39,116 bases of DNA from contig VGDT01000028.1 in the NCBI GenBank assembly GCA_016869595.1, positions 1 through 39,116 of the forward strand. Reading direction: 5' to 3'. Position numbers and translations under genes: made by a program. This document shows positions 14,176-19,591 of this stretch, one piece after another. The notes beneath the pieces are model-generated. The model was not told where the DNA came from, did not search any database, and was given only the letters and a program-made list of their open reading frames with translations. Every line of letters starts with the position of its first letter. Positions within the stretch are counted from its first letter, which is position 1. This DNA comes from Alphaproteobacteria bacterium (GTDB lineage: Bacteria > Pseudomonadota > Alphaproteobacteria > Rhizobiales > Beijerinckiaceae).

Positions 14176-15972
14176 TCATTGAATCCGGGCGGCATCCACA
14201 ATGCGCGTTTCGACGCGCTCAACGCCGCGAAAGACATTGCAGGCGAGTCTCGCCGCGACGTGAAGCTGCGCGCCATCGCCTCTGAGCAGCGCCTCGCCGA
14301 GCGGCGAATGCGCGGCGCGGAAGGCAATTGCATCGACCAACGCGCCATCGCGCGAACGCAAACGCGCGCGCACATGATCGGCGCCGACGATCTGAGCAAA
14401 TGCGACCTGCTGCTCCGGGAGAGCAAATACCGGTTCCGGATTGCCCTGTCCGAAGGGCCCTGCCCGCTCGACCCGTCGCAAAAGGTCGAGACACACGCCT
14501 CTGCCCGCCAGCGTAGCGTCCAGGAACAGCGCATCCTCGAGTCGGGCGGTCTCGACCGCCGCTTCGAGCGCCTCGTTGAGAAAGGCGCGAAAGTCGTCGA
14601 GCCGATCGCGCGCTAAAGTCACGCCGGCCGCCATGGCGTGTCCGCCGCCTTTGACCGCAAAGCCACGATCAACGGCGCGACGCACCGCCGCGCCAAGATC
14701 GACGCCACTTAAACTTCTACCTGAGCCAGTTCCATTTGTTCCATTAAAAGCAATAACAAATGACGGTATATTAAAGCGCTCCTTTAAGCATGATGCGATC
14801 AGCCCAACGACGCCCGGATGCCAATCCTGGCCTTCAACGATGAGGCATGACAAACGGTTCGAGCTCGCCAATTGCGATTCGGCCTGGGCGATCGCCTGCT
14901 CCAACGTCGTCCTCTCGACGATCTGTCGCTCGCTGTTCAATCGATCAAGCTCGGATGCGATGCGGCGCGCTTCCGCATTGTCGGCGAGGGTCAGCAGACG
15001 CGCGCCGAGTCCGGCGTCGCCGATCCGACCCCCGGCGTTGATTCGCGGGCCGAGCGCGAAGCCAAGATCACGGGCGCGCGGCCGGCCGTCCAATCGAGCG
15101 ACGTCGATCAGCGCGGCGAGTCCCGGACGCGATCGCGCCGCCATCACCATCAGACCCTTGGCGACAAGCGCCCTATTGAGCCGCGCGAGCGGCGCGACAT
15201 CGGCAACTGTCGCCAGAGCGACGAGATCAAGCGCGGCGAGAAGATCGGGTTCCGGTCGATCGTCTCTCCACCAGCCGCTCGCCCGCAGCGCACGGGAAAG
15301 TCCGATGAGGGCGAGAAAAACGACGCCCGCAGCGCAGAGCGTCCCCTGCCCCGAAAGATCATCGAGCCGATTGGGATTGACGACGAGCGCGTCGGGCAAA
15401 ACCTCTGGCGCTTGATGATGGTCGAGAACGATCACATCGAGGCCGAGAGCGCGTGCTATGGCGAATGCCTCGTGACTTGTGGTTCCGCAATCTACGGTGA
15501 CCAATAGAGTTGCGCCGCGCGCCGCAAGATCGCGGATCGCCTCGACGTTTGGGCCATAGCCTTCGACGATCCGGTCCGGAATATGGAGCAAGGGCTCCGG
15601 CGCGCCGGCCGCGCGCCAAAAGTCGACGAGCAGCGCCGAGGAGCAGGCGCCATCGACGTCATAGTCGCCGAAAATCGCGATCTGTTCGCCCTTTTCGATC
15701 GCATGCGCAAGCCGATCCGTCGCGGCGTCCATATCGCGCAAGGACGAGGGGTCCGGGAGGAGGTCGCGCAGCTTGGGATCAAGATAGTCCGCCGCATCAG
15801 CGACGGTGACGCCGCGCCCGGCGATCACGCGCGCGAGAAAATCATCGATCCCATGCGTTTGGGTCAGCGCAAGCGCCTGCGCCTCGCCCTTCGCGTCGAG
15901 TCGCCCACGCCAACGTCGGCCGAGCACCGAGCGCTCGACCCCCAGAAAGGCCGGAAAGATCGAATCAGACAT
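14176..15972 (-). CDS. recJ: Single-stranded-DNA-specific exonuclease RecJ
   Basis: RecJ degrades single-stranded DNA 5' to 3' in recombination and repair. The protein (598 residues from ATG 15972) has the DHH domain with IFGDYDVDGACSSALL, VTVDCGTTSHEA and VLDHHQAPE, and the DHHA1 domain with HPGVVGLIASCLKERF, GTGSGRSL and AVKGGGHAMAAG. The C-terminal OB-like domain follows. A longer frame to 16056 adds 28 residues that do not look like RecJ. Within the DHHA1 domain the DNA at 14711-14790 is far more AT-rich than the rest of the gene, although the protein motif there is intact. Confidence 0.93.
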   Translation of the reverse strand: MSDSIFPAFLGVERSVLGRRWRGRLDAKGEAQALALTQTHGIDDFLARVIAGRGVTVADAADYLDPKLRDLLPDPSSLRDMDAATDRLAHAIEKGEQIAIFGDYDVDGACSSALLVDFWRAAGAPEPLLHIPDRIVEGYGPNVEAIRDLAARGATLLVTVDCGTTSHEAFAIARALGLDVIVLDHHQAPEVLPDALVVNPNRLDDLSGQGTLCAAGVVFLALIGLSRALRASGWWRDDRPEPDLLAALDLVALATVADVAPLARLNRALVAKGLMVMAARSRPGLAALIDVARLDGRPRARDLGFALGPRINAGGRIGDAGLGARLLTLADNAEARRIASELDRLNSERQIVERTTLEQAIAQAESQLASSNRLSCLIVEGQDWHPGVVGLIASCLKERFNIPSFVIAFNGTNGTGSGRSLSGVDLGAAVRRAVDRGFAVKGGGHAMAAGVTLARDRLDDFRAFLNEALEAAVETARLEDALFLDATLAGRGVCLDLLRRVERAGPFGQGNPEPVFALPEQQVAFAQIVGADHVRARLRSRDGALVDAIAFRAAHSPLGEALLRGDGAQLHVAARLACNVFRGVERVETRIVDAARIQ

Positions 15973-16092
15973 CGCTGCCTCAAAGCCAGTGGCTAAGCCC
16001 CGCTGACCCGGGAGGCAAGTTTGGCGACGCAGTTGGGGAGGAACAGTCGCGGGCAAAATAAGCTTGTAATCTCAATTGTCTGCCAAATTTGG

Positions 16093-16124
16093 TTGACATC
16101 GCTCTCCATCGGCTGCGTTATATC
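16093..16124 (+). promoter_or_regulatory. Candidate sigma-70 promoter for the tyrosinase cassette
   Basis: A perfect TTGACA lies at 16093-16098. A TATA-like stretch, GTTATATC, lies at 16117-16124, giving a spacer of about 17 to 20 bases depending on which hexamer is the -10. The surrounding DNA is more AT-rich than the coding flanks. It points towards the caddie-like gene at 16259, leaving a leader of about 130 bases. Prediction only. Confidence 0.5.
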
Positions 16125-16258
16125 CTCATAGAATGTTTTCTATCCAATCCGTTTTGATGAGGCGTTGGGCGCGCCAAAGTCTGTAGATTTTTCGACGACT
16201 TACCAATTCACGAGCGCCTTCGCCGAACTACGTGAAAAAGAATTGAGCGGAGACCTTT

Positions 16259-16663
16259 ATGGAGACCAAAAAGCTCGAGACGGGCGCCGCGCCTCAGAAA
16301 CTCGGCGAGTATCTCTCAAGAACGCGCGAGAAAGCGCCGATGCACGCCGGTCATGGCGCTGGCGGCGCTCAGTCGGTGCGCAAGGACGACTATCGCGGCC
16401 ATGAGATAGAAATCGTCACCACCTACAAAATCCTGGTCGACGGAAAGAAAATTCGCGCGCCGCTCGGCGTCGACGCAGCCGGCAAGGTTCATTGTCATTC
16501 ATTGCCGAACTACCAGACGGCTTCGGCGGTGGACATGGTGCGGGCGCTTATCGACGGCTTTCCCGAGGAGTTCGAACCTAAGCCCGCCCGGCGCAAGAGC
16601 CGGCCGGCGTCTCGTCGAAAGAGCAGGTCCGCCGCGAAGAAAGGTTCAAAGCACGAGCATTGA
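16259..16663 (+). CDS. MelC1-like tyrosinase cofactor (copper chaperone, caddie)
   Basis: The 134-residue protein resembles the core of Streptomyces MelC1, the caddie that delivers copper to tyrosinase. The match is a pattern: YRGHEIEI (45-52), YKILVDGKKI (56-65), an AAGKVHCHS turn (73-81), N84-Y85, then a VDMVRALIDG helix (91-100). MelC1 inserts a tyrosine into the tyrosinase active site; Tyr85 is the candidate equivalent. His78, Cys79, His80 and the N-terminal MHAGHG are possible copper ligands. Unlike MelC1 it has no signal peptide, and it ends in a strongly basic Arg/Lys/Ser tail (from about 110). GCGGAG precedes the ATG. The tyrosinase gene starts 19 bases after its stop. The assignment rests on motif similarity plus position. 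Confidence 0.62.
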   Translation: METKKLETGAAPQKLGEYLSRTREKAPMHAGHGAGGAQSVRKDDYRGHEIEIVTTYKILVDGKKIRAPLGVDAAGKVHCHSLPNYQTASAVDMVRALIDGFPEEFEPKPARRKSRPASRRKSRSAAKKGSKHEH

Positions 16664-16682
16664 TGTTTTCAGGAGAGAGACG

Positions 16683-17648
16683 ATGGCCGTCGTCCGAAAA
16701 AAAATTTCGCAAAACGCAGATGTACGGGATCAATACATTCAAAGCGTCCAATTACTAAAAAAAGAGGCGTCTGGCCGAAAAACCAATGAATTCGGCATTC
16801 CAGGCGCGGCGCGCTCAGTCAGCACCTACGATCTTTTCGTCATCTGGCATGTCACCGCCATGATGCTGGAGACGCCGCCGGGAAATCCGGCGGGAAGAAA
16901 CTCGGCGCATCGAGGACCCGTCTTCGCGCCATGGCATCGCGTGATGCTGATGCTCTTCGAACAGAACCTGCAGCGCGTCCTGAACGATGCAAACTTCGGC
17001 CTTCCCTATTGGGACTGGGCCGAAGACGGCGATCTGCCGCAGCAGCAGCAGAGCGCTGCGGCAATTTGGGGCGCTGACTGCATGGGCGGACAGGGCAATC
17101 CGGTGACCACCGGCCCCTTCGCCTTCAGCCAAAGCGATCCTTCCGCCTTCAGAGTGCGCATCTCCACGAATATCTCCGGAGAGTTGCGATCGGTGAACCG
17201 CGGCCTCCGACGCGCCTTTGGCGTCAGCGCCGACGCGCTGCCGAGAACGGCGCATGTGACGAATGCGCTCGCGCTATCGCCCTATGACTCGCCCGACTGG
17301 GACGCCGATACGAACAGTTTCCGCAATCGCATCGAAGGATGGATGAACGACGATGGAGTCTCCGCGACCTGGCTGCATAATCTGGTGCACGTCTGGGTCG
17401 GCGGAGAGATGTTGCTTGGCTCCTCTCCCAACGATCCTGTTTTCTTTCTCAATCATTGCAACATCGATCGCCTCTGGGAGAGCTGGATGACGCGAAATGG
17501 GCGCGTCTACGTTCCTGATATGACAGCGGACGCCGATCTCAAGGGTCACCGCATCGACGACCCGATCAGCTCTCCGCTGGGGCGCAACGCCACGCCGCGC
17601 GAGATGCTCGATGTGAGCGCCATTTACGAATATGACGCGCTCCTATGA
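16683..17648 (+). CDS. Tyrosinase (type 3 copper phenol oxidase)
   Basis: The 321-residue protein hydroxylates monophenols and/or oxidises diphenols to quinones. Copper A ligands are His56, His76 and His85 (WHVTAMM, AHRGPVFAPWHR); copper B ligands are His232, His236 and His258 (WLHNLVHVWVGGE, NHCNIDRLW). The Asn after the first copper B His (Asn233) and the Glu of the IEGW motif (Glu218) match the pair thought to give bacterial tyrosinases monophenolase activity. No signal peptide or C-terminal shielding domain is present, so it is probably cytoplasmic and kept inactive or loaded by the upstream caddie-like protein. AGGAGAG precedes the ATG. The lipase-like gene follows after 41 bases on the same strand. 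Confidence 0.93.
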   Translation: MAVVRKKISQNADVRDQYIQSVQLLKKEASGRKTNEFGIPGAARSVSTYDLFVIWHVTAMMLETPPGNPAGRNSAHRGPVFAPWHRVMLMLFEQNLQRVLNDANFGLPYWDWAEDGDLPQQQQSAAAIWGADCMGGQGNPVTTGPFAFSQSDPSAFRVRISTNISGELRSVNRGLRRAFGVSADALPRTAHVTNALALSPYDSPDWDADTNSFRNRIEGWMNDDGVSATWLHNLVHVWVGGEMLLGSSPNDPVFFLNHCNIDRLWESWMTRNGRVYVPDMTADADLKGHRIDDPISSPLGRNATPREMLDVSAIYEYDALL

Positions 17649-17689
17649 GCGCCAAAGCCTTTTGATTTTCTATCAACTTCGGATCGGCA

Positions 17690-18880
17690 ATGGCGCTCAA
17701 ATCCGCTCATATCATTTTCGTGCATGATTTCTTCGGCTGGGGACCTAGAGAGTTCGGACTTCCCTATTGGGGCGACGCTCTCGACCAGATCGGCGAACCA
17801 TTCTTGGTTCATGAAGCCAAAGTAGGTCCGGTCAGTTCCTTTCACGATCGCGCCTGCGAGCTTTTCGCGCAGATCGGCGGCGGAAAGGTCGATTATGGCG
17901 AGCGGCACAGCAGCGAAGCGCGCCATGCCCGATATTCACGGGAATATGCCAGCCCTTTTGCGCCCGACTGGTCGGAAGAGAAGCCGGTGATCCTCGTCGG
18001 CCACGGCGCCGGGGCCCAGACCGCGATGCAGTTGCAAGCTCTGCTCGCCCAGGATTTCTGGGAGCGCGGAACGAGCGCGGACTGGATCGAGGGCGTCGTT
18101 TGCGTCGCCGGCGCCATCAACGGGTCGCTGCTTCCCTATGGCATTGGATGCGACCGCGAAGATGGACGGCTCAAGCGCAGGCCGAGTCGGCTTATCGCTG
18201 AGTCATTCAATTTCCTCGGAATGGCCGCGGGCGTACCGAGCGCCATGCGCAGGCCATTTGATCTTCATCTCGATCAATGGACGGACGGCGAAGAAGACGA
18301 GAGAGAGGCGATGGCGCGTCTTGACGCTGGCGCCTTCGTCGCCGGCGAGGACAATCTCGCCTTCGACATGACGCTTCAGGGCTGCCGAAACGCCAACGCC
18401 CGGTTCAGATCGCATCCGGCGACGTACTATCTGTCGCTCGTCACGAACGCCACTCATGCGCGCCCTTCGGGCTTTTTCGGCAAGACCTGGCGACCCGACC
18501 CGACGATCCACCCCATTCTTTGGCAGCCGGCGCTCTATCAGGCGCAAGAAGCCAATTTCGCCAAGGCGCCGATCGTCGGTTGGGGCGGCGGCTGCCTTGC
18601 GCTGCCGAAATGGCGGCCCAATGACGGCGCCGTCAGCGTTGTTTCTCAGCGCTATCCGTTTACGGCGCGGGAAGAGCCTGTGGGAGGCGAAGGCGTCTTC
18701 AAACGCCAAAGACTCAAGCCGGGACGCTGGTATTACGAATATCTCGACAGAGCGATCGGTCAGCGCTTCGATCACTTTGACGCGGTCATCGGCGCACAAC
18801 TCAAACCCTGGGTCCCGGGCCTACGCGACGCGCATAAGGAGATTTATCTGCGGCTCGGCGAGACTCTGCGCAGCCTCTAA
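17690..18880 (+). CDS. Family I.5 lipase-like protein lacking the nucleophile serine
   Basis: The 396-residue protein aligns along its length with Geobacillus/Staphylococcus-type lipases. Shared blocks are the VHDFFGWG oxyanion region (11-18), FHDRACELFAQIGGGKVDYG (51-70), HLDQWTDG (193-200), YYLSLVTN (246-253), NDGAVSVVS (311-319) and the RFDHFD end. The zinc ligands of that family map to Asp53, His73, His79 and Asp195, all kept. Catalytic Asp312 and His362 are kept. The nucleophile elbow, AHSQGGQ in Geobacillus, reads G104-H-G106-A-G-A-Q here: Ser is Gly106 (codon 18005-18007). It is therefore probably not a serine lipase. There is no signal peptide. It is the third gene of the tyrosinase cassette. 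Confidence 0.85.
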   Translation: MALKSAHIIFVHDFFGWGPREFGLPYWGDALDQIGEPFLVHEAKVGPVSSFHDRACELFAQIGGGKVDYGERHSSEARHARYSREYASPFAPDWSEEKPVILVGHGAGAQTAMQLQALLAQDFWERGTSADWIEGVVCVAGAINGSLLPYGIGCDREDGRLKRRPSRLIAESFNFLGMAAGVPSAMRRPFDLHLDQWTDGEEDEREAMARLDAGAFVAGEDNLAFDMTLQGCRNANARFRSHPATYYLSLVTNATHARPSGFFGKTWRPDPTIHPILWQPALYQAQEANFAKAPIVGWGGGCLALPKWRPNDGAVSVVSQRYPFTAREEPVGGEGVFKRQRLKPGRWYYEYLDRAIGQRFDHFDAVIGAQLKPWVPGLRDAHKEIYLRLGETLRSL

Positions 18881-18898: not shown

Positions 18899-19591
18899 TC
18901 AGTGCAGTCCAGTGATGCCATGCGTGCGGAGCGCGTCGATCACGCCGCTGAAGACCAGGGACACGCCCATCGCCGAAACGAAGAAGCCGACGATTCGGGT
19001 CGCCGCATCTATTCCGAGCGGTCCGAGCGTCGTCGTCAGTCGCGTGGCGAAGATGAGACACGCATAGGTCGCGGCCACGGCGAGAACAATTGCAGCGAGG
19101 ATCGAGCCGAACGCCAACGCCTCATGGGATGAGCGCTCGACGACCGCCATCATCCCGAGCACGGTCGCGATCGCGCCGGGTCCGATCATCAAAGGCATCG
19201 CGAGCGGCATGAAAGCGATATTGCCGTTGGATCCGGCGCAGCCGAGAGACCCGTCTCCGTTCGATGACGGCAGAAAGAGTTCGAAGCCAATCCGCATCAA
19301 CACGATGCCGCCGGCGATACGCACCATGTTCAGCGAGACGCCGAATATTTTTAGGATCACCGCGCCGAAGAACAAAAAGAAGAGTATGAGCAGCAACGCG
19401 TAAAGACAGGCCCTGAACGCTACCCGACGTCGCTCCTGGTCGCTTTTATCGCGCTGAAGCAACAGAAAGATCGGCAGCACCTCGAAGGGATTGATGATCG
19501 CCAGCAGCGTGGTGAAGGTCGAGAAAAAGAGCGTCAGCTCGGTTCTGAAGACGCCGGCGCCGATGTCCGCAATGAGACCGTTGATCGTCAT
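18899..19591 (-). CDS. MarC family integral membrane protein
   Basis: The 230-residue protein has about six membrane segments and family motifs: a FSTFTTLLAIINPFEVLPIFL N-terminal helix pair, RIAGGIVLMRIGFELF and the central PLAMPLMIGPGAIATVLG re-entrant-like segment. MarC/YhcE proteins belong to a transporter superfamily with unresolved substrates; the name came from the mar locus but a drug-resistance role was not upheld. It converges with the lipase-like gene, 18 bases between stops, and is divergent from the aldose epimerase-like gene. Confidence 0.9.
   Translation of the reverse strand: MTINGLIADIGAGVFRTELTLFFSTFTTLLAIINPFEVLPIFLLLQRDKSDQERRRVAFRACLYALLLILFFLFFGAVILKIFGVSLNMVRIAGGIVLMRIGFELFLPSSNGDGSLGCAGSNGNIAFMPLAMPLMIGPGAIATVLGMMAVVERSSHEALAFGSILAAIVLAVAATYACLIFATRLTTTLGPLGIDAATRIVGFFVSAMGVSLVFSGVIDALRTHGITGLH

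Follow-up and report, generated by a model that had tools for sequence, protein, structure and literature searches.

The window analysed here is the whole 39,116-nucleotide stretch of contig VGDT01000028.1 (assembly GCA_016869595.1), from a bacterium whose named relatives belong to the methanotroph genus Methylocystis (Alphaproteobacteria, Methylocystaceae). It contains three forward-strand genes that encode a caddie-like helper, a tyrosinase and a family I.5-like pseudo-lipase. Gene 1 (16259-16663) encodes a leaderless protein of 134 amino acids with an HCH motif at residues 78-80, a loop tyrosine (Tyr85) and a C-terminal KHEH. Gene 2 (16683-17648) encodes the tyrosinase (321 amino acids), and gene 3 (17690-18880) encodes a protein of 396 amino acids in which the serine nucleophile is replaced by glycine at residue 106 (bases 18005-18007). 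The intergenic gaps are 19 bases between genes 1 and 2 and 41 bases between genes 2 and 3. The group is flanked by recJ on the left (14176-16056, TIGR00644) and marC on the right (18899-19591, PF01914), both on the reverse strand, opposite to the three genes; neither changes its place in genomes where the caddie-tyrosinase pair is missing. A reading made earlier from the sequence alone (the original prediction) had described the three same-strand genes (16259-18880) with these gaps as a tyrosinase cassette. The arrangement was confirmed and is conserved within one Methylocystis clade, yet the three genes do not form an indivisible cassette: caddie and tyrosinase are a two-gene unit.

The middle gene had been predicted to encode an intact tyrosinase, which agrees with our analysis. 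Its product matches PF00264 (E-value 5e-41, 141.8 bits, cut-off 22.6), and the six histidines of the CuA and CuB copper sites (H56, H76, H85, H232, H236, and H258) are invariant in six aligned sequences. The best-scoring solved sequences were multi-domain haemocyanins, followed by tyrosinase chains such as 1wx2 from Streptomyces and 3nm8 from Bacillus megaterium (PMC9454253; here and below, published work is cited from excerpts of the papers). At 321 amino acids, the protein would not accommodate a large C-terminal lid domain. The presence of a tyrosinase is in itself not new, since a published review (PMC9454253) includes Methylocystis rosea among the carriers of the enzyme.

Several observations concern individual tyrosinase genes. 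In genome G004 (locus L065), which is outside the six-sequence alignment, the CuA residue His76 is replaced by Tyr (AYRGP versus AHRGP) in an open gene, and this copy may be inactive. The tyrosinase of the window is 96% identical to that of G024, 94% to that of G014 and 93% to that of the close sister G036; unlike the tyrosinase, the caddie and lipase of the window follow G036 (98%). A short caddie-tyrosinase gap of 18-19 bases is common to the window, G024, G014, and G036. Recombination of the tyrosinase gene between species is possible, a point that the tyrosinase tree, with a weak grouping of the window and G036 (84/38), does not settle. Distant second tyrosinase genes, 41-44% identical in the parts that match, lie elsewhere in the genomes of G027 (L083) and G024 (L084), and L083 has one TAA within the match.

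The helper gene was found directly before a tyrosinase gene in all 17 cases, which span two phyla and comprise 13 Methylocystis genomes, a Methylosinus, two other Pseudomonadota genomes and one planctomycete metagenome-assembled genome (MAG). A helper profile compared by hhalign with a profile of five MelC1 proteins from six Streptomyces loci (L108 had no annotation) gave 48.5% with alignment A7, against at most 0.6% for 20 column-shuffled profiles; with A5 the value was 61%, the shuffled controls belonging to the A7 comparison. The truncated caddie of G029 was excluded from the caddie alignments. A structure model of modest confidence returned caddie chains as the top matches in Foldseek (350,542 PDB chains) and VIA, with weak fold scores, and a comparison with a viral fold library was uninformative. 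That the helper is a diverged homolog of MelC1, the Streptomyces caddie, is therefore supported but not shown, and its description as caddie-like is borne out by its constant position, its MelC1-like profile and its weakly MelC1-like fold. The original prediction also held that none of the three proteins has a signal peptide. A crude hydropathy script detected neither a Tat (twin-arginine translocation) RR motif nor a signal-like N-terminus on any of them: the window helper has no RR and low hydropathy, and three Streptomyces controls showed RR and a hydrophobic stretch with the same script.

Gene 3 corresponds to the predicted full-length family I.5 lipase-like protein without a nucleophile. 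It matches Lip_C (PF24708; 5e-21, 75.4 bits, cut-off 27) and solved lipases, the T1 and L1 chains included, at 3e-33. In an alignment with a Bacillota lipase, Gly106 occupies the position of the serine, and D312, H362, D53, H73, H79, and D226 are kept. The predicted zinc site agrees with this conservation: the putative ligands D53, H73, H79, and D226 are invariant in six of six aligned sequences. The zinc-ligand and catalytic Asp/His roles are carried over by alignment from family I.5 lipases (PMC8168862), and H362 was assigned as the catalytic His from the shared DH motif. The nucleophile elbow reads GHGAG in all 18 close Methylocystis orthologs and GHSAG, with the serine kept, in the three divergent relatives (G007, G032, and G079). 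The 22 genomes with a match have one apiece, and a second, Ser-bearing copy was not found in them.

Among 150 related genomes, lipase matches were found in 22, namely 20 of the 39 genomes of the genus, one genome of another genus (47%) and one weak match. The caddie was found in 13 of the 150. Tyrosinase matches were obtained in 19, and 13 of these represent orthologs, with identities of 64-100%. The order caddie-tyrosinase-lipase is present at the recJ-marC locus in 12 of the 18 genomes with a close lipase ortholog (two of the 12 are cut by contig ends), and this conservation rules out chance adjacency. The remaining six (G001, G012, G018, G027, G030, and G033) have the lipase without the pair. 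In reverse, the Methylocystis MAG G023 has the pair at another location with no lipase beside it, and pairs without a lipase in the stretch seen were found in Methylosinus Ce-a6, a Fimbriiglobus MAG (Planctomycetota) and G635; the same holds for G272, where the contig ends 455 bases past the tyrosinase and the downstream side is not covered. The neighbour search across genomes that had been proposed for the cassette spoke in part against it, as the lipase was absent beside all four testable pairs away from recJ-marC. Class-wide, the lipase was found in one of 385 genomes (E 1e-10), the window's own, and the caddie in two of 385; phylum-wide, the caddie was found in two of 349, the window's own being included in both counts. 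These wider searches score few first-look candidates per genome, so that rare relatives may be missed. No caddie relative was found in a limited search of viral_contigs, and a plasmid search made with the G272 helper rather than the window's own found no relative; to this extent, viruses and plasmids gave no indication of having spread the gene.

Where the pair is missing (six genomes), the recJ-lipase interval holds the upstream block that elsewhere precedes the caddie gene, together with a remnant of the 3′ end of the tyrosinase gene close to the lipase. When the 3′-terminal 126 bases of the tyrosinase gene from 12 references were compared with 200 dinucleotide shuffles, the number of references above the shuffles was 11 for G027, G030, and G012, 8 for G001, 7 for G018, and 2 for G033. 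An initial test, based on three references and on simple shuffling, was consistent with this for five of the six. For the caddie start, all 11 references rose above the shuffles in G030 and none did in the other five. The remnants mean that the pair was once present in these genomes and was then deleted. The remnant in G033 is weak, being also not collinear in the initial test; G033 was counted with the other losses because it has the same locus and is sister to G027 in the lipase tree. The six genomes fall on one side of a single branch, with support of 100/99 in the lipase tree (17 genomes; G017, G007, G079, and G032 left out) and 87/89 in a tree of two neighbouring genes, aldE and cysK (14 of the 18 close genomes, without G006, G017, G029, and G030). 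In three of these genomes, at L075 (G033), L076 (G001), and L073 (G030), tblastn gave the marC match in two pieces, which may indicate an insertion or a frame problem in marC.

In all six genomes the lipase gene has stayed open, with the upstream block still before it and purifying selection acting on it. The ratio of nonsynonymous to synonymous substitution rates (dN/dS; G017 excluded, as its lipase is cut by a contig end) was 0.14 for the lipase gene in genomes without the pair and 0.09 in genomes with it, compared with 0.07 and 0.06 for cysK, 0.11 for the tyrosinase and 0.22 for the caddie. Decay of the lipase gene to a pseudogene was rejected, given the lack of stops within the matches and the dN/dS of 0.09-0.14. 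Because these genomes maintain the lipase without the pair, the lipase-like protein is not an obligate partner of the tyrosinase, and an indivisible three-gene cassette was likewise rejected. In the divergent member G007, recJ adjoins a Ser-bearing lipase without the pair, which suggests that the lipase was at the locus first and that the pair arrived upstream of it later.

Upstream of gene 1, the candidate promoter (TTGACA, 19 bases, TTATAT; 16093-16123, forward strand) has a TTGACA box; among the aligned genomes, 10 of the 11 that carry the pair have this box, as do two of the six that lack the pair. Further downstream, the 22-base block ATCCAATCCGTTTTGATGAGGC (16142-16163, forward strand) is a possible operator or leader element. 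Its TTGATGA core is present in all 17 aligned genomes (11 of 11 with the pair and the six without). The alignment rows of the latter six were excised around this core; it occurs exactly once per intergenic stretch in all six and is also visible in an unanchored alignment of these stretches. The genome of the window has one site for the block at up to three mismatches (control 0). The block precedes the caddie gene or, after loss of the pair, the lipase gene. In some relatives it contains an imperfect CATC-N6-GATG inverted repeat, the window having CAATC.

We propose that the locus combines a cytoplasmic caddie-tyrosinase pair with an older, separately maintained pseudo-lipase, a reading to which we assign a probability of about 70%. 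By analogy with Streptomyces, where the caddie blocks its enzyme and loads it with copper (PMC6312201, PMC8375020, PMC9454253), the helper would bind the apo-tyrosinase to form a cytoplasmic complex, its loop tyrosine plugging the active site and its His motifs aiding copper delivery. The loaded tyrosinase would then oxidise phenols or catechols within the cell; the most likely benefit is protection from toxic phenolics, as described for Streptomyces MelD2. The predicted cytoplasmic variant is thus retained as far as the pair has no visible export signals, and a cytosolic location would fit this. Gene 3 would be the older resident between recJ and marC, a lipase gene whose product lost its nucleophile on the stem of the Methylocystis clade and has been maintained because it does something else, without hydrolysis and apart from the pair. 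Since the pair sits between the upstream region and the lipase gene, pair and pseudo-lipase would have this region in common and would probably be transcribed together. More tentatively, and with clearly less confidence than the proposal as a whole, the helpers may form a new, unnamed family of leaderless HxH caddies, often with His-rich tails, that copper-load intracellular tyrosinases in Pseudomonadota and Planctomycetota, next to a zinc-bearing pseudoenzyme lipase that lost its nucleophile on the branch of the pair and has an independent function, either in binding or through its Asp and His. If true, helper-dependent tyrosinases are more widespread than the MelC1 model detects, and the pair represents a compact copper-delivery system for the methanotroph cytosol.

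Some results weigh against this proposal. The window helper has no Pfam or NCBIfam match above cut-off; PF06236 (MelC1) matched neither it nor the helpers of L101, L103, and L105, although two Streptomyces positive controls scored 93.6 and 99.2 bits (cut-off 27). A scan for sigma-70 promoters with spacers of 16-18 bases found none upstream of gene 1, the TTGACA/TTATAT spacer being 19; of the single promoter originally predicted, what stands is a conserved upstream region. A PF06236 search of six genomes likewise gave weak matches elsewhere and none above cut-off, the tyrosinase scored 185.4 bits with the MelC2 equivalog model NF047834 (cut-off 450), and no MelC1 chain turned up when PDB sequences were searched with the caddie or with its profile. 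Together with the modest confidence of the model, its weak fold scores and His-rich tails that may recall generic metal carriers, the missing PF06236, NCBIfam and PDB matches could indicate that gene 1 encodes an unrelated small copper-binding or regulatory operon protein. We consider this the least probable of the alternatives, because MelC1 chains lead the Foldseek ranking, the MelC1 profile match is well above the shuffled controls and the helper holds its place before the tyrosinase in both phyla.

The other alternatives concern the pseudo-lipase. The original prediction saw it as a third functional partner that could act together with the tyrosinase by binding either a substrate or the enzyme itself. 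The constant order, a gap of 38-42 bases in 12 of 12 genomes, the shared upstream region and the lower lipase dN/dS in genomes with the pair agree with such a system, and the Ser to Gly change and the arrival of the pair may both fall on the stem of the same clade. However, in the six genomes without the pair the lipase gene is still open and its elbow has the same Gly, the four testable pairs elsewhere lack a lipase neighbour and the lipase was confined to the window's own genome in the class-wide search, so that the partner role is unsupported and the three-part system improbable. What the original prediction had named as evidence against itself is in part observed, as the lipase-like gene stays between recJ and marC without the tyrosinase. 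About as improbable is a protein still catalytic through an Asp-His dyad, for instance in cofactor-free chemistry on an aromatic compound. The invariance of D312 and H362 along with the zinc ligands, the purifying selection and the lack of a Ser-bearing paralog would fit catalysis, but the elbow offers no conserved substitute nucleophile, and the structure model is too poor to assess a pocket (mean predicted local distance difference test, pLDDT, 44.5). The six genomes from which the pair was naturally lost provide a clean comparison that separates the role of the pseudo-lipase from that of the tyrosinase.

Among known systems, Streptomyces melC (PF06236 and PF00264) has the same helper-tyrosinase order, and the present helper shows weak fold and remote profile similarity to its caddie, with the loop Tyr near the position of Tyr98. 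It differs in that the present helper has no Tat signal (by the crude script) and no PF06236 match, and in that the tyrosinase stays below the NCBIfam MelC2 cut-off. The best functional precedent is the intracellular MelD1/MelD2 (melD) operon of Streptomyces. As here, a helper directly precedes a small non-secreted polyphenol oxidase, and the S. coelicolor helper is reported to lack a Tat signal; the oxidase was reported to protect against phenolics, and MelD2 was found mainly in the membrane fraction (PMC2758597). In contrast, the present helper matches no MelC1 model and has an HxH motif, with tails that are mostly rich in His; its hosts are Pseudomonadota and a planctomycete. In Marinomonas, PpoB1 and PpoB2 similarly combine a tyrosinase and a dedicated copper-transfer protein in one operon, but PpoB2 resembles the putative transmembrane proteins of COG5486 and not a small soluble helper (PMC2855505). 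Reviews describe separate caddie proteins for Streptomyces (PMC9454253, PMC8375020), and in the excerpt of PMC11609597 caddies are present only as a cited reference. Among the matches listed for Methylocystis tyrosinase or melanin, methanotroph caddies and alphaproteobacterial MelC1, the excerpted literature did not describe the helper family or the gene group, and the papers listed on pseudoenzyme lipases led no further.

Gene 3 shares a long alignment, the zinc ligands and the catalytic Asp and His with family I.5 lipases (Geobacillus T1/L1, PF24708), from which it differs by the Ser to Gly change and by the absence of a signal peptide visible to the crude script; among the 150 relatives it was found in Methylocystis and, at 47%, in the one other genus. 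Dead alpha/beta hydrolases kept for binding, with Gly at the nucleophile, are known from the neuroligin-type cholinesterase-like adhesion proteins, a family unrelated to gene 3. Taken together, these comparisons support a caddie-tyrosinase pair with a divergent helper family, and the new part is a leaderless pair beside an independently maintained pseudo-lipase.
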